DNA from: a virus
Direction: 5' to 3' (one strand)
IMG/VR virus record: IMGVR_UViG_3300018405_000075
Location: 1 to 21,045 of that record
DNA: 21,045 bases
Below are positions 2,352 through 19,899 of this stretch, piece after piece. A model generated the notes under the pieces. The model ran no database searches, had not been told where the DNA came from, and worked only from the letters and a program-made list of their open reading frames with translations. The position numbers were made by a program, and so were the translations under genes. The first letter of the stretch is position 1; each line of letters starts with the position of its first letter.

Positions 2352-4763
2352 CTAGTAAACGTACGTGTTGCGCGACTTTACCGCATGATGCGCATGTTTT
2401 CTAGCGCGGGCGTCGCGCGCGTTGCCATCGGCGAACGCCATCATATTGTACTGAAAAGCGTCGTGCACGTGGCTGTATTCGTTTTTCTCGGGGCTGTCCG
2501 CCTTGACTCCTTTGCGGTTTATCGCGTAGCGGTAGCCTGCCTGGAACCCGATTATCAGTTTCTTACAGCTTGGATCGATCAGTACCGCGGGGCCTGCCTC
2601 GGTCAACAAAGACAGCCCGTCCTCCACCGCGCCTAAGCGAGCGGCTAAGACGTTGCTCGATGCTGGCACTACCTTGACCCCTAGTTCGCGCTCAACCACG
2701 CTGGCTACGGTAGCCTCGTCTGTCTGGGCACGTTGCTTGGTTGCAGGGTCCGCCGCGATAATCATTTTGCAGTCTCGGAACCGCTGGTTAATCAGGGGTT
2801 TGACCTTCTCGCGGCAGAACCGCTTGGCGCCCATGCCGTCGCTGGTCAACTCGGCCAGCACCAGTACACGGCCAAAACTATCCTGTTGTGAGAACGTGGC
2901 CGCCGGTGTAAGCCCTGCGTCGAAACCCATGATGATCGGCAGGTGTGGGTTGTATTTCAACGGCTGCTTAGCGCCGTGCAGCTCCGAGTTGAACATCTTG
3001 TACACGGGTTTGCCGCGTTGGCTGAACCCCCACAGCACCTTGATGAACTGGCTGACCCATGCTTCGGTCTTACCCTTTGCCAGTTCCATATAATACTCAC
3101 TACTGTCTGGGTCGTACGGTGGCAAGTTTTCCAAGTTCTCGGCATCTGGGCTGAACCCGCTGGGTTGGACGAAGTAGTTCAGCACTTCCTGCTGCAGCTT
3201 CGCTCCACCCTCTTCGTCTGGCCACTCATAGTTGAGCCAGTCGTACCACCAGGCGTCCTGCGTGCCTGGGTTCGATGCGCCCCAGATACCCTTCCAGGTA
3301 CAGCCGCCCTCTTTCTTCGACGGAAAGCGACCACAGCGTGACTGCAAGGCGTCAACAATCTCACGTGGGATCTCCACGAACTCATCCAGCATAGCCCCTG
3401 TGATCTCCAGAGACAGTACACTCGATACGTCATCCGCGGTATCCAGTGCTCGGAACATAACCTCGCAGTGCACGTCACTGAATCGGAACGTAAACGTCTT
3501 CGGGGTTGCGCGCCATTCACCGGCGATGCCAGGTTTGAACCACTGGAAGAATGATTTGAGCGTGGTGTCCTGCAGTTCCTTGTTCGTGTTACGCACCACT
3601 ACGAACCGCGTGTATCGGATGCCGTCTTCGGGGTTGGGCACCTGGCGTTTGGCGTGGAACAGAATTTTCATCAGGCAGGCTACTGACTTGCCCGAGTTGC
3701 CAGTAACGAACACCCGGCCGTTGTGTCGAGCCAAAAAGAAACTGGACGGGGTGCGGAAGCAGTATTGTTTGCCGCCTGGCGCCGGTACTTCGACACTCTC
3801 ATACGTCTCAGATTCTTTTACGCAGACCGCCGCCTTGCGGCTGCCCTTGGGCGATATGTGGACCGTGTATGTGGGTTTCCAGTTTGGGTTCTCGGGGTAG
3901 GTGTACGTGCTTATGGTTGCTCGACCACCTGTAGCGTGGGCCACGTATTGGATGAAGTCCGCGTCTCCTTTTGAGTTGGTAGAGAACCGGGTGTCTGGAC
4001 CCTCGAACAAACCGTCCCAATGCGACATTTCGTCGATGATCACATTTAGCTCGGTATTGTTCGCTGCCCACCACTGGGGGGTATCGAACGTCTTGCCCAT
4101 GTATGGGCTGTCAAACCTAAAGCACGTCTCTGACGGTCTGCCTGGGTATGTAGATTCTTTGTAGCTGACACCGCACGCCTTGAGTAATTCGCGAAGCCTG
4201 ATTTTCTTACGTTCTTTGCGCACGACAATGTGACACCATCGTCTTTTGTTCGTGGTTTTTTTGCCCGGCGCCGGGAAATGTCCATCCGCATGTATAGCTA
4301 CCGCCAGACGTAGAATGCGGCCAGACAATCCGGTGCCTGGGGCATCGACACAGAACGAGGTCGGTATTCGACGCACGCTCGGTTTGTCGTGTATTTTACC
4401 GGCCGGCACAACGCGGAAGTCACCCTTGTAATCGTAGTACGGAACGCGATGGTTCTCGGACAAGACCATGGATAGGGACCGCTCATTGCGGAAGTGAATC
4501 ATTTTCTCGGCAGGGGCCACTATGTACCCAAGTGGGTCTACCAATGTGACGCAGCCACCTGTGGGGTCGTTTATGGGTGATGGGGTCCACTGCGCCACCT
4601 TATCACCTGGTTCGTACTCATCGACCCGCTTCCACCCTCGGGCGGTCAAGAACTCGGTATCCCCAGACACGGGACCGACCGGACCCACGACGAAGGTATA
4701 TTTCTTGAGGCTTTGGATTACGGCCTCACCTGTAGGGGTCGGTGTGTAGTTTACGTCGCTCAT
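2352..4763 (-). CDS. terL: Large terminase subunit precursor containing an intein
   Basis: An 803-residue precursor. Removing the intein (residues 31 to 356) leaves 477 residues, normal for a phage packaging ATPase/nuclease. The joined halves recreate a perfect P-loop, GPVG plus SGKS. Walker B is GAMLDEF, with D460 and E461. The C-terminal RNase H-like nuclease has acidic residues in IIMGFDAG (D615), IIAADPA (D672) and SHVHDAFQY (D768). The protein cuts concatemers and drives DNA into the procapsid through the portal, using the small subunit for recognition. It starts at an ATG at 4763 with AAGGT about 10 bases upstream and stops at TAG. Because the intein splits the ATP-binding loop, packaging should need splicing. 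Confidence 0.95.
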   Translation of the reverse strand: MSDVNYTPTPTGEAVIQSLKKYTFVVGPVGPVSGDTEFLTARGWKRVDEYEPGDKVAQWTPSPINDPTGGCVTLVDPLGYIVAPAEKMIHFRNERSLSMVLSENHRVPYYDYKGDFRVVPAGKIHDKPSVRRIPTSFCVDAPGTGLSGRILRLAVAIHADGHFPAPGKKTTNKRRWCHIVVRKERKKIRLRELLKACGVSYKESTYPGRPSETCFRFDSPYMGKTFDTPQWWAANNTELNVIIDEMSHWDGLFEGPDTRFSTNSKGDADFIQYVAHATGGRATISTYTYPENPNWKPTYTVHISPKGSRKAAVCVKESETYESVEVPAPGGKQYCFRTPSSFFLARHNGRVFVTGNSGKSVACLMKILFHAKRQVPNPEDGIRYTRFVVVRNTNKELQDTTLKSFFQWFKPGIAGEWRATPKTFTFRFSDVHCEVMFRALDTADDVSSVLSLEITGAMLDEFVEIPREIVDALQSRCGRFPSKKEGGCTWKGIWGASNPGTQDAWWYDWLNYEWPDEEGGAKLQQEVLNYFVQPSGFSPDAENLENLPPYDPDSSEYYMELAKGKTEAWVSQFIKVLWGFSQRGKPVYKMFNSELHGAKQPLKYNPHLPIIMGFDAGLTPAATFSQQDSFGRVLVLAELTSDGMGAKRFCREKVKPLINQRFRDCKMIIAADPATKQRAQTDEATVASVVERELGVKVVPASSNVLAARLGAVEDGLSLLTEAGPAVLIDPSCKKLIIGFQAGYRYAINRKGVKADSPEKNEYSHVHDAFQYNMMAFADGNARDARARKHAHHAVKSRNTYVY
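3696..4673 (-). other. Intein with LAGLIDADG homing endonuclease, in the terminase P-loop
   Basis: This is an in-frame protein insertion, residues 31 to 356 of the precursor. The N-terminal block is PVSGDTEFL, with Pro instead of the usual Cys/Ser/Ala at position 1. Block B is LSENH. The C-terminal blocks are KQYCFRT and NGRVFVTGN, followed by Ser as the first C-extein residue. Cys334 takes the place of the usual Asp in the VYDL-type block F, and Thr354 is two residues before the terminal Asn356. These traits resemble class 3 inteins, where an internal Cys attacks the N-terminal junction. The Trp expected in block B is not evident (the residues after His are RVP). Between the splicing blocks are two LAGLIDADG-like helices, LAVAIHADG (D160) and IIDEMSHWDG (D250), so the endonuclease may still be active and spread the intein. 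Confidence 0.9.
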
Positions 4764-8987: not shown

Positions 8988-9337
8988 TCACAACGCTACC
9001 GGAGAGCAGCACGGGTAAAGTTAGTAGGTTGGCTAGGTTATGTCAAGCGGGGGCTATAAAATCTATAACGAGGCGGATATGTGGGAGGTGTATTAGGTAC
9101 TGGGTTTTTGTGGGCTGGGCAAATTTTATGAGCGGCACTGCATTGTGGTTTTGTTTTTAGGGATAGTACAACTAGGACACTGTGAAATTAGGTGCTGTGT
9201 AGTGAGGCGAATGGATAAGAGAGGGTACGCACACAGCCCCTCCCCCCAGCACCCCTCGCGCCTGGAGTCAAGGGACGTTACTCGATGCCAGCTAGCAGCC
9301 CGAGCACGCCGCCAGGATTTAGCAGAGCCTCCCGCGC

Positions 9338-9403
9338 CAGCTAAGCGCTAGCCAGGTGAGCTACGCTAGCCAGCTAAGCGCTAGCCAGGTGAGCTACGCT
9401 AGC
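9338..9403. repeat. 33-base tandem repeat, two exact copies
   Basis: Two identical 33-base units (9338 to 9370, 9371 to 9403) begin CAGCTAAGCGCTAGCC. Each contains the palindromes AGCGCT and GCTAGC and a copy of GAGCTACGCTAGC. A partial copy of CAGC/GCTAGC appears upstream near 9288. They are noncoding and lie about 130 bases left of the first GTATAC site. Confidence 0.85.
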
Positions 9404-9486
9404 CAGCCAGGCACACAACAGCACACCGCCGTATAATTAAGCGCCGCACGTTAAATCTAATTATGTTTAGCGGGTGATGGCCTTGC

Positions 9487-9528: not shown

Positions 9529-9690
9529 TCTCGCGTATACGCGAGACAATACCGCCGAGCTATCCGTATACGCGAGACGCTAATTTAGAGCTATTTGTAT
9601 ACGTGGGAGGCTATCCGTATACGCGAGACGCTAATTTAGAGCTATTTGTATACGTGGGAGGCTATCCGTATACGCGAGACGCTAAATCTA
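9529..9690. repeat. Left GTATAC array (six sites, 51-base repeat unit)
   Basis: GTATAC palindromes begin at 9535, 9566, 9597, 9617, 9648 and 9668, with steps of 31, 31, 20, 31 and 20. The last four steps arise from a 51-base tandem unit (9559 to 9609, 9610 to 9660, partial from 9661). Each unit holds one CCGTATACGCGAGA site and one TTTGTATACGTGGGAG site. The first site is the fullest: TCTCGCGTATACGCGAGA is an 18-bp perfect palindrome. Steps match two or three turns of B-DNA, so all sites face the same side. This is expected of cooperative operator or iteron arrays. Confidence 0.93.
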
Positions 9691-9738
9691 AGGCTTAACA
9701 CGTGGCTATATACTGCTAAATTAACGTAGAGCGTGTTA

Positions 9739-9769
9739 ATTCGGCACCATTATGGTGCGTTTTGCTAAA
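9739..9769 (+). repeat. Palindrome GCACCATTATGGTGC followed by TTTT
   Basis: GCACC and GGTGC pair around ATTAT and are followed by GTTTTGC. It could be a weak rightward terminator or a protein-binding palindrome. It sits between the left GTATAC array and the AT-rich core. Confidence 0.35.
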
Positions 9770-9870
9770 AATAGTGATCCAAAGGCTTGTTTTTACCCAA
9801 ATGACCGAATAGGTCACTACGGCTGAAAGGCCCATTCCAGAGCGGTTCCTCTTATTATTTATCCATGGAA

Positions 9871-10051
9871 TAGTGAAAAAAGTGAAAATAGTGAAGGAAA
9901 AATTTATAGGATACGCTGTGAGGGTTATTTGTATTCATGAGATTGTGCGGCGCGCTAAATTAACACCGCAGCATAACAACCAAAAGAATACAAACAGCCC
10001 CTAAAACGCGTTATATCTGAAAAGTCTTGTCTATTTTCACTATGTTCACTA
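9871..10051. repeat. 181-base imperfect dyad with 9-base TAGTGAAAA repeats; candidate origin core
   Basis: Three 9-base direct repeats (TAGTGAAAA, AAGTGAAAA, TAGTGAAGG at 9871, 9880 and 9889) are mirrored by two inverted ones (TTTTCACTA, TGTTCACTA, ending at 10042 and 10051). Bases 9871 to 9888 match the reverse complement of 10034 to 10051 at 16 of 18 positions. A second pair, GGGTTATTTGTATTC (9922 to 9936) and GAATACAAACAGCCC (9986 to 10000), matches at 12 of 15. Both pairs share the same centre, base 9961. The left arm is very AT-rich, as in an origin's unwinding element. More TAGTGA/TCACTA copies lie at 9772, 9814, 10100 and 10121. Confidence 0.7.
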
Positions 10052-10055
10052 ATAC
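10027..10055 (+). promoter_or_regulatory. Possible promoter overlapping the TCACTA repeats
   Basis: TTGTCT (10027 to 10032) and TAATAC (10050 to 10055) are 17 bases apart, with both TCACTA repeats lying between or on the boxes. If real, a protein bound to the repeats would directly block it. The -10 match is weak. Confidence 0.25.
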
Positions 10056-10147
10056 CCCTCTAGCATGGGCCTCCCAGGCTAGGCAACCTTGACTAATGGT
10101 CACTAAAAAGCCCCGCCGCTTCACTATTTGCCAGCATTTCTATGGTG

Positions 10148-10334
10148 TCCGTATACGGATAGCCTTAAATTAAGCCTATTTGTATACGCGAGAACGCCAA
10201 TTTAAGGCTATCCGTATACGCGAGAGCACCACACATAGCCCAATGTATACGCGAGAGCGCTAATTTAAGGCTATCCGTATACGTGGAGCCCACGCCTATT
10301 ATTCTCGTGTATACGTCAGACCTTACCTGTATAC
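10148..10334. repeat. Right GTATAC array (seven sites)
   Basis: GTATAC begins at 10151, 10182, 10214, 10245, 10277, 10309 and 10329, with steps of 31, 32, 31, 32, 32 and 20. Four sites keep the GCGAGA or GTGGAG flank seen in the left array; the first is a TCCGTATACGGA palindrome and the last two are degenerate. The regular steps equal three or two helical turns. The array ends about 35 bases before the candidate early promoter, placing it where a bound protein could control the early genes. Confidence 0.92.
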
Positions 10335-10369
10335 AGTTAGACCGCCCATCGACTAGAGCGTCTGGCGTA

Positions 10370-10398
10370 TTCTTTTGATGGTAATGCTGCGTTATGCT
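10370..10398 (+). promoter_or_regulatory. Candidate early promoter
   Basis: TTCTTT (10370 to 10375) and TATGCT (10393 to 10398) are 17 bases apart, ending 29 bases before the first early ATG. The -35 is poor and the -10 moderate, so an activator bound at the adjacent GTATAC array might be needed. The distance to the start codon fits a short leader. Confidence 0.42.
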
Positions 10399-10427: not shown

Positions 10428-11099
10428 ATGAAGCCACGCAAGCCCCGCCCGCTTAACTTGCCCCACCAGATGCAGGCGCGAATAACCGATAGCCAACTGT
10501 TTTTCATTCAGGTTATGGCACCCAACGAGCGCAACGCAGCCGCGCAACTGCGCAAGACGCTAGAGCGCTGCATCAATTTAGCCCTGGATACCGGAGCAGC
10601 CCCGCCCGCGTTATATGAGCACATAGCGCAGCACCGCCCTATAAAATGGAGCGAGCTATATAGCCGCGGACCCATACCAGGTGCAGACCACCTGCCCGAG
10701 CCGCATTATTCCCGCGTGCATGGCCACCCGAGGGCTGCCCAGGTAGCGCCAGGCACCAGCAACCCACGCCCTGACCCGTTCGCAGACTGGGAAGACGACG
10801 AACCCGAGCCACAACACCACGCAGCGCCACAATACACACCACCGGCCCAGGTACAGCCGCAGCCGATCCAACAACCCGCAAGCGGCCCGCAGTACCTGGC
10901 GAACCCATACGCGCACTTACCAAACAGTCAGCGACCGGCCAAATACCAGGCCACCAGGCAGACCCGACACGCGACACCCGAAGAACTAGCAGCCGAAGGC
11001 CGCCGCGCGATGCAGTACGCAGCGCTTGAAGCCCAAGGAAAAGCGCCAGCCTGGGAGCACGCACCCTGGGAGGAAGTCATACCAGACAACCAGGCATAA
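10428..11099 (+). CDS. First early protein, N-terminal helical domain and Pro/Gln-rich tail
   Basis: A 223-residue protein of unknown family. ATG at 10428 follows CGGAG about 10 bases upstream. Residues 16 to 52 (MQARITDSQLFFIQVM, then NAAAQLRKTLERCINLAL) could form a short strand and two helices, a layout shared with ribbon-helix-helix DNA-binding domains, though the match is weak. From about 90 to 175 it is Pro/Gln/His-rich low complexity, probably disordered. A helical end with PEELAAEGRRAMQYAALEAQGK follows. It is the first gene right of the GTATAC array, so it is one candidate for the protein that binds there and controls its own promoter. That role is inference. Confidence 0.7.
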   Translation: MKPRKPRPLNLPHQMQARITDSQLFFIQVMAPNERNAAAQLRKTLERCINLALDTGAAPPALYEHIAQHRPIKWSELYSRGPIPGADHLPEPHYSRVHGHPRAAQVAPGTSNPRPDPFADWEDDEPEPQHHAAPQYTPPAQVQPQPIQQPASGPQYLANPYAHLPNSQRPAKYQATRQTRHATPEELAAEGRRAMQYAALEAQGKAPAWEHAPWEEVIPDNQA

Positions 11100-15212: not shown

Positions 15213-15538
15213 AAAAGCCGATCATATACCGCACCACCGACAATCAAGCCGCACAACACCGAGCACGGCCGCGACTACTAGAAGCCGCCGATATTGTCGC
15301 GCAGTACCGCCAGCATAACCCCGACATACTAAACGAATGGCACCGCTCAAAACTGACCGGCTGTATAAAGCACGCCCGCGAATGCAGCCGCAATAGTTGG
15401 CAAGAACCCAAGCACCACAGGCGCGAGTACCTGCGCATGCGACGAGAAGCCATGCAGGATGCCCGGTACTGGCGCGACCTGGTAAACAGCACCCATGAGC
15501 GGCACACCGCCGCGGCAACCGGAGAGACGTACCCATGA
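15209..15538 (+). CDS. Basic early hypothetical protein, 109 residues, GTG start
   Basis: Function unknown. The GTG at 15209 overlaps the previous stop. The product is strongly basic, with a helix-rich middle and end (RRLLEAADIVAQYRQHN-type region, then HHRREYLRMRREAMQDARYWRDL). Abundant Arg and aromatic residues could suit RNA or DNA binding. Cys is nearly absent and there is no membrane part. The TGAGCGGCACACCG repeat sits near its end (15496 to 15509), read as ERHTA. An ATGA overlap leads to the zinc-finger/Arc-type gene. Confidence 0.68.
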   Translation: MKKPIIYRTTDNQAAQHRARPRLLEAADIVAQYRQHNPDILNEWHRSKLTGCIKHARECSRNSWQEPKHHRREYLRMRREAMQDARYWRDLVNSTHERHTAAATGETYP

Positions 15539-15978
15539 AAATGTATGTGACCAACTTCAACAAAAAACAAGGCGCCCCGATCTGGGGCCTGGAGCATATG
15601 CCAGAGGACCAGCATATGGCGAGCTGCGATCTGTGCGGCCACCTGTTCGGCACTAAAAAGGAACTACTGGCGCACTATGCTGGCGACACCCGTGTGGAAC
15701 TGGTAAAGAAACCCAAGTCGCCAGCCAACCGCACCGCCGACGCCAAGGTAGTGGTACGCATGACCGCTGGGCTGCACGATGAACTCAAGGCGACAGCCAA
15801 GGCAAACCGCCGGTCTATGAACACCGAGATCCTGCGCCGATTGAGCGGCACACCGAGCGAGTCGGAACTCGCCACCGCCGTTATGGCCGCCATGCACAAT
15901 AAATGCTTCTACGCGGCAGACGGTACTTTAATGACCGTGGAAGTCAAGCGCAGCATCTTCGACGACGTGGATAAATAG
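15535..15978 (+). CDS. Putative transcription factor: zinc-finger-like N-terminus and Arc-type DNA-binding domain
   Basis: A 147-residue protein. Residues 31 to 47 read CDLCGHLFGTKKELLAHYAG, with C31, C34 and H47 in C2H2-finger spacing but no second His at the usual place. Residues 71 to 103 read KVVVRMTAGLHDELKATAKA, then NRRSMNTEILRRL, a very good match by eye to the Arc/MetJ-type ribbon-helix-helix family, where the first strand contacts the DNA major groove and the RSMN-x-EIL helix packs the dimer. Residues 104 to 147 (SGTPSESELATAVMAAM...) may form a C-terminal tail. Such dimers bind tandem, helically spaced operators. It is thus a strong candidate for the GTATAC arrays. It overlaps the upstream gene by 4 bases. 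Confidence 0.82.
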   Translation: MKMYVTNFNKKQGAPIWGLEHMPEDQHMASCDLCGHLFGTKKELLAHYAGDTRVELVKKPKSPANRTADAKVVVRMTAGLHDELKATAKANRRSMNTEILRRLSGTPSESELATAVMAAMHNKCFYAADGTLMTVEVKRSIFDDVDK

Positions 15979-18640: not shown

Positions 18641-18647
18641 CACCGCC

Positions 18648-19247
18648 ATGTCTAAGCTGACACACGACCTCAAGTCCACCATCAAGGCCAACGCTTGCAC
18701 ATCTGCAGGTCTGGACAAACAACACGAACAGATCCAAGCCGCCAAGGCTACGCTGGCCGAAGACCTGTATTCCCTACGCATGAGCGAGTACAAGCACGAT
18801 ATACCACACATTGAAGCACTGGAGAAAAGCATAGCCGAGACCATACCCGAAGGACTGCGTTGCTCTATAGTGTTGGTGGGGCGGGGCACGAGACAGCTGT
18901 ACAATGTTGGTGGTGAAGTCCACCGAATAGACTACCCTGGCGAACCCCGTATTCTCGACACTAAGAACAAGGGTTTCGCCATCCAGGCATCCCACCCATT
19001 GGCAAAACGACTGACCAAACTGAACAACCAGGCGGCAGACCTTAAAGACCGGTACGACCAGGTCAAAGCCGAGGTCGGCGCCGTGTTGTCCAGCGTCAAT
19101 ACTATTCCCCAGCTCCTGAAAGTGTGGCCCGAAGCCAAAGAATTACTACCTGAGCGCAACAAACCAGCACCTGCTCAGTTGCCGGCCGTACAAATCCAAC
19201 ACCTGAATAGCGTGCTGGGCCTTCCTACTGATTCCGAAACGGAGTAA
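18648..19247 (+). CDS. Nmad5-like protein (nucleotide modification associated domain 5)
   Basis: A 199-residue protein. The layout matches what I know of the Nmad5 family: a helical N-terminus (EDLYSLRMSEYKHDI), a beta segment with LYNVGGEVHRIDYPGEPRI, HPLAKRLTKLNNQAADLKDRYDQVKAEVGAVLSSV at 116 to 150, NTIPQLLKVWPEAKELLP at 151 to 168 and LPAVQIQHLNSVLGLPT at 178 to 194. The family was named by comparative genomics from phages with modified DNA bases; no reaction has been assigned. It sits between dUTPase and the DEDDh exonuclease, which supports a role in DNA metabolism. The ribosome site is CGGAG. It leads to the next gene after 4 bases. Confidence 0.78.
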   Translation: MSKLTHDLKSTIKANACTSAGLDKQHEQIQAAKATLAEDLYSLRMSEYKHDIPHIEALEKSIAETIPEGLRCSIVLVGRGTRQLYNVGGEVHRIDYPGEPRILDTKNKGFAIQASHPLAKRLTKLNNQAADLKDRYDQVKAEVGAVLSSVNTIPQLLKVWPEAKELLPERNKPAPAQLPAVQIQHLNSVLGLPTDSETE

Positions 19248-19251
19248 CACC

Positions 19252-19899
19252 ATGCACATCATGATCGACTTTGAAACGCTGTCCCTCAAGCCCAACGCCG
19301 TATTGCTGGCCCTCGGCGCCGTTGCGTTCGACGCAGACACCGGCGTGCTGCTGGAGCAGTTCTACGTCAACATCGACCCGCGTATCCAACCAGGCCGTGA
19401 CATCAGCGCCAGCACCGCCCTGTGGTGGATGAAGCAATCCGACGAAGCCCGTCAGCGCCTAACCACCGCAACCGATCTGGCCGACTTGAAAGACAGCGAG
19501 AAGTTCGACGAACTGTCCGAGGAAGAACAAGACCGGGTATTCATGGAAGCCGCCATGCCAATCAACCACGCCGCCCAAGCGTTCATTACCTGGTACGATT
19601 ACGTCAAGGACCAGAACGCTAAGGTTGAGGGTGTATGGTCGTGCGGTGGTATCGACCACACCTGGATGGAATCCATGATGGATTACTCAGGCTTCAAGAA
19701 CCCCATTCCGTACTACGTCCAGCGCGACTACCGCACGATGCGTGAGCTGTACCCCCAGGTTATAGCACCGCCGTTCGAGGGCGCACAACACGACGCCGCA
19801 GCCGATGCCATGTATCAGACCGCGCACCTGCTGGACATCCTGCAACACATCGGCCAGGCGCGTAGTAAGCCCGCCCTGACCGTCGTACCCACGGAGTAG
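19252..19899 (+). CDS. DEDDh 3'-5' exonuclease
   Basis: A 215-residue protein of the RNase H-like DEDDh type, similar to the short phage exonucleases annotated Rv2179c-like. Exo I is MIDFETLS, with Asp6 and Glu8; Exo II is GGIDHTWME, with Asp135; Exo III is AQHDAAADAMYQ, with His180 and Asp185. All four metal-binding acids and the general-base His are present, so activity is expected. It may trim DNA or RNA 3' ends during replication, repair or RNA turnover. A charged insertion near residues 74 to 98 (LADLKDSEKFDELSEEEQD) is typical of this subgroup. CGGAG precedes the ATG. Confidence 0.88.
   Translation: MHIMIDFETLSLKPNAVLLALGAVAFDADTGVLLEQFYVNIDPRIQPGRDISASTALWWMKQSDEARQRLTTATDLADLKDSEKFDELSEEEQDRVFMEAAMPINHAAQAFITWYDYVKDQNAKVEGVWSCGGIDHTWMESMMDYSGFKNPIPYYVQRDYRTMRELYPQVIAPPFEGAQHDAAADAMYQTAHLLDILQHIGQARSKPALTVVPTE

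Follow-up and report, generated by a model that had tools for sequence, protein, structure and literature searches.

In a virulent-looking relative of Pseudomonas phage Rollin, thirteen GTATAC sites form two helically phased arrays in the noncoding junction that separates the leftward late genes from the rightward early genes. The arrays flank a core of about 460 bp with origin-like features. Their layout is kept in four lineages and their phasing in three, but the recognition word is not. We give about even chances to the reading that the arrays are operators of the first early gene's product, and that they form an autoregulated early promoter together with a nucleoprotein complex at the origin-like core. 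The DNA analyzed here, called the window, is the 21,045-bp virus record IMGVR_UViG_3300018405_000075. Its late genes include those for the portal (2339-195, minus strand) and the terminase (4763-2352, minus strand), and its early genes begin at position 10428 on the plus strand.

The left array is located on the late-gene side (9529..9679), with six GTATAC sites starting at 9535, 9566, 9597, 9617, 9648 and 9668. The right array, on the early-gene side (10144..10340), has seven, starting at 10151, 10182, 10214, 10245, 10277, 10309 and 10329. All 13 positions given in the original prediction are exact. The entire window contains 15 copies of the word, whereas shuffled windows average 4.0 and never exceed 10, and the Poisson probability of at least 13 copies in 806 bp is about 4e-21. 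The steps between sites are 31, 31, 20, 31 and 20 bp in the left array and 31, 32, 31, 32, 32 and 20 bp in the right. The helical phasing proposed for these steps of 31–32 or 20 bp is confirmed: at 10.5 bp per turn their mean cosine is 0.92. The best period is 10.4, and none of 100,000 sets with random spacing was equally good. The steps are not all independent evidence, because segments 9559-9609 and 9610-9660 of the left array are an exact 51-bp tandem duplication. One spacer in the right array is unrelated in sequence and is still 25 bp long. The best full site, TCTCGCGTATACGCGAGA (9529..9546), is indeed a perfect 18-bp palindrome, with zero mismatches in the site search. The GCGAGA flank, said to be shared by most sites, follows GTATAC in 7 of the 13.

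Just to the left of the left array is a 33-bp perfect tandem repeat of 2.2 copies (GCCAGCTAAGCGCTAGCCAGGTGAGCTACGCTA, 9336-9407). Upstream of the late genes, on their own strand (8987-8954, minus strand), is a strong terminator-like hairpin with 15 pairs and a T run; late transcripts may be initiated past this hairpin or be subject to antitermination. Two other accounts of the arrays were considered and set aside, restriction sites and protein-coding repeats. The minus-strand open reading frame that spans the repeats (10404-10165) has no sign of being a gene.

The top relatives by portal are G001 (60 kb, 60%), G005 (46.6 kb, 60%) and Rollin (OR577172, 60.6%); the HMO-2011-like phages are far weaker portal relatives than these three. 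Megablast of the window against phages gave no match, and neither did a portal-profile search of host genomes. A DUF927 primase-helicase of about 990 residues is encoded by five of the five sizeable relatives tested (G001, G005, G007, Rollin and the genome of L241), and Rollin also encodes a family A DNA polymerase.

In G001, 15 GTATAC sites are located at its own late/early junction, in two blocks with steps of mostly 21, 31, 32 and 54 bp. G005, a partial genome with a contig that starts within the array, and the closely related L213 also have two blocks, with steps of 31, 32 and 53 bp, but the palindrome is a different one, CATTACCCAATGGGTAATG and variants of it. Two further sites with this palindrome, 56 bp apart, are found in the core of G005/L213. 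Rollin has a third palindrome, AAAAGGTAGTAACTTRCTACCTTTT. Its sites are few and poorly phased (steps of 21, 45 and 80 bp), and therefore the phasing is not universal. The steps pooled across the phages have a mean cosine of 0.75 at 10.5 bp, with 0 of 100,000 random sets as good. A lack of conserved spacing in relatives was among the grounds on which the original prediction would be refuted; the phasing was found to be kept. Its view that a cooperative DNA-binding protein organizes the early/late junction or an origin is supported as well.

Regular spacing could also arise by descent, through tandem duplication of a site together with its spacer, and the sites would then be a sink or neutral. 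The exact 51-bp duplication in the left array is of this kind, and near-identical tandem units are present in G001 and G005 as well. However, the steps of 31–32 and 52–53/20–21 bp recur in G005/L213 with an unrelated palindrome, the divergent spacer of the window has kept its length, and four lineages have kept arrays at this locus. Phasing without function is for these reasons scarcely credible.

A palindrome-cluster screen of portal-bearing loci, which detects exactly repeated words only, found no other such array, and the exact array unit of the window was not found in viral contigs. A scan of viral contigs for phased GTATAC triplets returned 68 stretches, among which G001 is the recognized relative and the other listed clusters are spaced differently. 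GTATAC clusters are located in the viral contigs L166 (2988-3063), L163 (5478-5534), L128, L133, L140, L154 and L160, with 11-bp steps, 8-bp steps and a common 9/43/12/23 pattern; these are possible operators of other regulators. The junction spacers of the window, G001, G005 and Rollin are rich in short GGCTTAAWTTAAGCC-like palindromes, constant across the operator classes, which are possibly a second binding site or a bend element.

The candidate array-binding protein is the 223-residue product of the first early gene (10428..11099, plus strand). It has a layout resembling that of ribbon-helix-helix (RHH) proteins at about residues 13–55, followed by a proline-rich disordered middle and a C-terminal helix. 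No match was found for it in Pfam, PHROG or PDB sequences, a Foldseek search with its model gave nothing meaningful, and the counterparts in G001, L213 and Rollin have no convincing Pfam or PHROG family. The first early proteins of all four phages share a small N-terminal segment (strand, short helix, turn, long helix), a proline-rich middle with a short, tryptophan-containing acidic motif, and a C-terminal helix. Models of the window and L213 proteins, at low confidence (mean pLDDT of 52 and 40), show a strand-length segment, a short helix, a turn and a helix of 16–19 residues. This helix pattern fits the RHH fold, a beta-alpha-alpha unit that dimerizes through its strand, and the 10428 product may well adopt it. 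In L241, a still more distant relative, the positional counterpart of this gene is located beside the core motif and matches DUF6290 (7.8e-05), NikA-like, HicB and RHH_1 families (weak, below cut-off); the palindromes near it read AATCCCACGGGATT.

The first early protein is the fastest changing of the three proteins compared. Across these phages the portal is 59–78% identical and the primase-helicase 56–65%. The first early proteins of the window and G001, both with GTATAC, show a weak match (E of 5e-4), and those of Rollin and L213 match with an E of 2e-11. Across the operator classes only proline-rich low-complexity or insignificant matches were found, and none for the N-terminal part was significant. 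A profile of the first early gene, searched against viral contigs, finds only the contig of L213 itself; in phages, Rollin is the only match of the L213 protein, and the window protein has none. The operator word and the first early protein thus appear to change together, as a protein/operator pair would, a correlation based on about five informative phages from few lineages. Moreover, in the four phages examined for this, roughly 50–100 bp separate the first early ATG from the nearest palindrome ahead of it, a position compatible with autorepression.

Other proteins could occupy the sites: the Arc-family protein, with a possible zinc finger, encoded at 15535..15978 (plus strand), the phage's own primase-helicase, or a nucleoid protein of the host. 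The first of these is a bona fide member of an RHH family (Pfam Arc, 5.3e-08), and is present in the window and in Rollin and weakly in G001. It was not detected in the incomplete contig of G005, however, where phased arrays are present, and its gene is not adjacent to the arrays but 5 kb away, for which reasons the 10428 product appears the better candidate. The primase or a conserved host factor is disfavored because the palindrome is wholly different between phages whose primase-helicases are 56–65% identical. Binding of the arrays by any of these proteins is considered improbable, and the 10428 product is retained as the candidate binder.

The core (9680..10143) is origin-like in its composition, its iterons and hairpins, and the blocks that it shares with G001 and G005/L213. 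The region had been described as AT-rich; it is only moderately so, with 48–68% AT per 100-bp window and the peak of 68% at 9851-9950. In a MAFFT alignment of the window, G001, G005 and L213, the segment 10018..10073 (plus strand) is a conserved block of ACTATT/TTCACTAT-type iterons leading into CTCTAGCATGG. It contains the iteron set CTATTTTCACTATGTTCACTA (10026..10051, plus strand), seen in both the alignment and a repeat search, and the repeat search also finds an inverted set, TTCACTATTTTCACTTTTTTCACTAT on the minus strand, at 9870..9896. One copy of the core motif, CTCTAGCATGGGCCTCCCAGGCTAGGCAA (10058..10086, plus strand), could form a short hairpin, although the signal is weak (DNA fold of -7.8 kcal/mol, z of -1.6). 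A second, inverted copy, GCTCTGGAATGGGCCTTTCAGC on the minus strand (9822..9843), is 86% identical to the G001 motif and is oriented relative to the genes in the same way as that motif; the ACTATT-iteron/CTCTAGCATGG block of the window has the opposite orientation relative to the genes. A conserved, terminator-like hairpin, GCACCATNNTGGTGC followed by TTTT, is found at 9736..9775 (plus strand, hairpin at 9744-9758). It is 85% identical to L213 over 40 nucleotides, has a fold z of -2.5, and was picked up in a terminator scan. Upstream of the first early gene is the element GTATTCTTTTGATGGTAATGCTGCG (10367..10391, plus strand), which carries one-mismatch variants of GTATAC and has an inverted near-copy at 9967-9991 and a partial copy at 9931. 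These coordinates (9931, 9967-9991 and 10367-10391) carry the 25-bp element GTATTCTTTTGRTKGTWATGCTGCG, inverted within the core and again ahead of the first early gene, which is a possible phage promoter or degenerate site.

A search for the pattern ACTATT...CTCTAGCATGG finds G001, G005 and L213, and most of its other matches have few or no repeats nearby. The core motif AAGTNNTTGATTT is found in G001, G005, G007 and L241 and in none of the host genomes. Most of its matches belong to one repeated sequence free of iterons, which seems to be coding DNA from a different group of phages, and the motif alone is therefore not diagnostic. In the Rollin core the iteron-like repeats are different (TTGCATACT), with only short pieces in common. 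The more distant G007 (portal 47%) carries, at its junction, inverted sets of TTTACTATT iterons together with AAGTNNTTGATTTC and a CTAG hairpin. Although this core is present, neither palindromic arrays nor such a first early gene was found at the G007 junction, and for this reason the core seems older than the arrays. L103 and L241, relatives lacking phased arrays, have a leftward gene on the late side of the core (18947-19513 and 3136-3768, respectively, both on the minus strand) whose product looks largely helical; no counterpart of it was seen in the window.

In a phage group that encodes its own primase-helicase, a core with iterons, hairpins and an AT peak can naturally be read as a replication origin. 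Clustered short iterons with an AT-rich region, the traits of iteron-type origins, are both present, and direct as well as inverted iterons are found near an early regulatory gene, as in such origins. Unlike in those, an initiator gene was not identified beside the core, and the origin is only putative. An Rfam search of the junction gave no match.

The junction could instead be purely a transcriptional switch, in which the first early protein or another phage regulator shuts divergent early and late promoters and the core is promoter and terminator rather than origin. The arrays do lie between divergent gene blocks and adjoin the first early gene, and the conserved hairpin in the core is terminator-like. 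In addition, the junction shows no clear sign of an origin in GC skew. On the other hand, the iterons and hairpins of the core are conserved more deeply than the arrays, unlike in a plain operator or promoter, and a promoter scan gave two matches compared to 2.7 expected, not above chance. A switch of this kind is somewhat unlikely, though a serious alternative to the combined operator and origin reading.

The original prediction had also suggested a partition centre resembling parC, and this suggestion fares less well. It would make the two blocks, bound by an RHH protein around a promoter, the segrosome of a plasmid-like prophage. The parC site of R1 likewise has its repeats in two blocks, one on each side of a promoter, and is bound by the RHH protein ParR, with autorepression by looping (PMC5016525), and to this extent the likeness stands for the type II parC/ParR systems (R1, pSK41). 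The type of repeat differs, however. According to the title of Dam and Gerdes (1994), cited in PMC5016525, R1 parC is made of direct repeats, whereas the window has palindromes 20–32 bp apart, rather than the directly repeated ParR iterons of ParMRC, and a core of about 460 bp with iterons. The ParA-type ATPase (AAA_31) and ParB_N, which characterize ParABS, and integrase were not found in the window, G001, Rollin, G005 or L213, although the positive controls matched; the window and some of the contigs are fragments. A search of the same five records for StbA_N/ParM gave no match, with its control set also silent, and no NTPase gene was recognized after the first early gene. A partition centre is therefore not supported by these searches, and is considered very improbable. 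Operators or stoperators of lysogenic immunity (CI/Cro type) were set aside, given that no integrase was found; the one HTH_3 match, below cut-off, is in Rollin and 6 kb from the junction.

The 87-kb plasmid of Massilia violaceinigra (NZ_CP024609; L099/L100), a distant relative, has a portal 32% identical to that of the window, an N4-gp56-type capsid, a tail fibre, ParA/ParB and an integrase. It looks like a phage-plasmid, and since it carries ParA/ParB with a related portal, plasmid lifestyles exist at this distance.

Read as phage operators that accompany an RHH-like regulator at a junction with origin-like features, the arrays are of an already known kind. P22 Arc is a small phage RHH regulator with a palindromic operator near its own gene. 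In both phages palindromic operators are located near the gene of a small RHH or RHH-like regulator, but P22 has a single operator and the window 13 phased sites in two arrays, and the 10428 product has no Pfam Arc match. ORF56 of pRN1 is an RHH protein as well. As a small repressor it accompanies the primase-helicase ORF904 (PMC4234260), a combination of transcriptional repressor and replication system that is similar to that of the window group. The two genes of pRN1 share an operon, and its origin, a 100-nt stem-loop, lies downstream of orf904. In Rollin, by comparison, about 25 kb separate the RHH-like gene from the primase-helicase gene, and the iteron core of the window group is upstream of the RHH-like gene. 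The surprising part is that geometry and core are conserved with word and protein replaced.

In the preferred reading, the 13 sites would be operators for the small DNA-binding protein from 10428-11099, each palindrome being bound by dimers or tetramers. Since neighboring sites are two or three turns apart, the bound proteins would share one face of the helix and could touch each other, giving two rigid nucleoprotein blocks around the 460-bp core. The right block is placed immediately ahead of the start codon of the protein itself and would keep the early promoter repressed, which would be autoregulation. Together the two blocks may bend or loop the core, repressing promoters and helping or blocking the opening of the putative phage origin, with its inverted 9-bp iterons, AT peak and conserved hairpins. 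A bolder proposal, which we hold as speculative and rather doubtful, is that this lytic phage family builds a phased scaffold around its origin with a fast-evolving RHH protein. Protein and palindrome would be replaced together in each lineage, with spacing and core kept, and the resulting complex, naturally orthogonalized and segrosome-like but free of an NTPase, would license or silence the origin.

The data suggest that the docking word of each phage is paired with its own fast-evolving DNA-binding protein. If so, related phages would supply matched protein/operator pairs of different specificity and the same geometry, in which cooperativity, helical phasing and specificity swapping are directly testable, and a replication origin would be located in a little-studied phage group. 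The swapping of palindromes might be a sign that relatives competing within one cell exclude each other (superinfection incompatibility).

Several other features of these genomes were observed. The public record of Rollin (L013/L014) has nearly 10 kb of early region without annotation (51.8–61.3 kb), which includes the first early gene (61208-60786) and the Arc-family gene near 56.1 kb. The terminase of the window carries an intein-like insertion of about 300 residues between GPVG and SGKS, within the Walker A loop; the match of the Rollin terminase to it covers residues 338–803 only, and the G005 terminase has no insertion. Finally, the gene at 18642-19244 (plus strand) encodes a protein with the nucleotide-modification-associated Nmad5 domain (3.6e-32), which suggests that the phage DNA or nucleotides may be modified.
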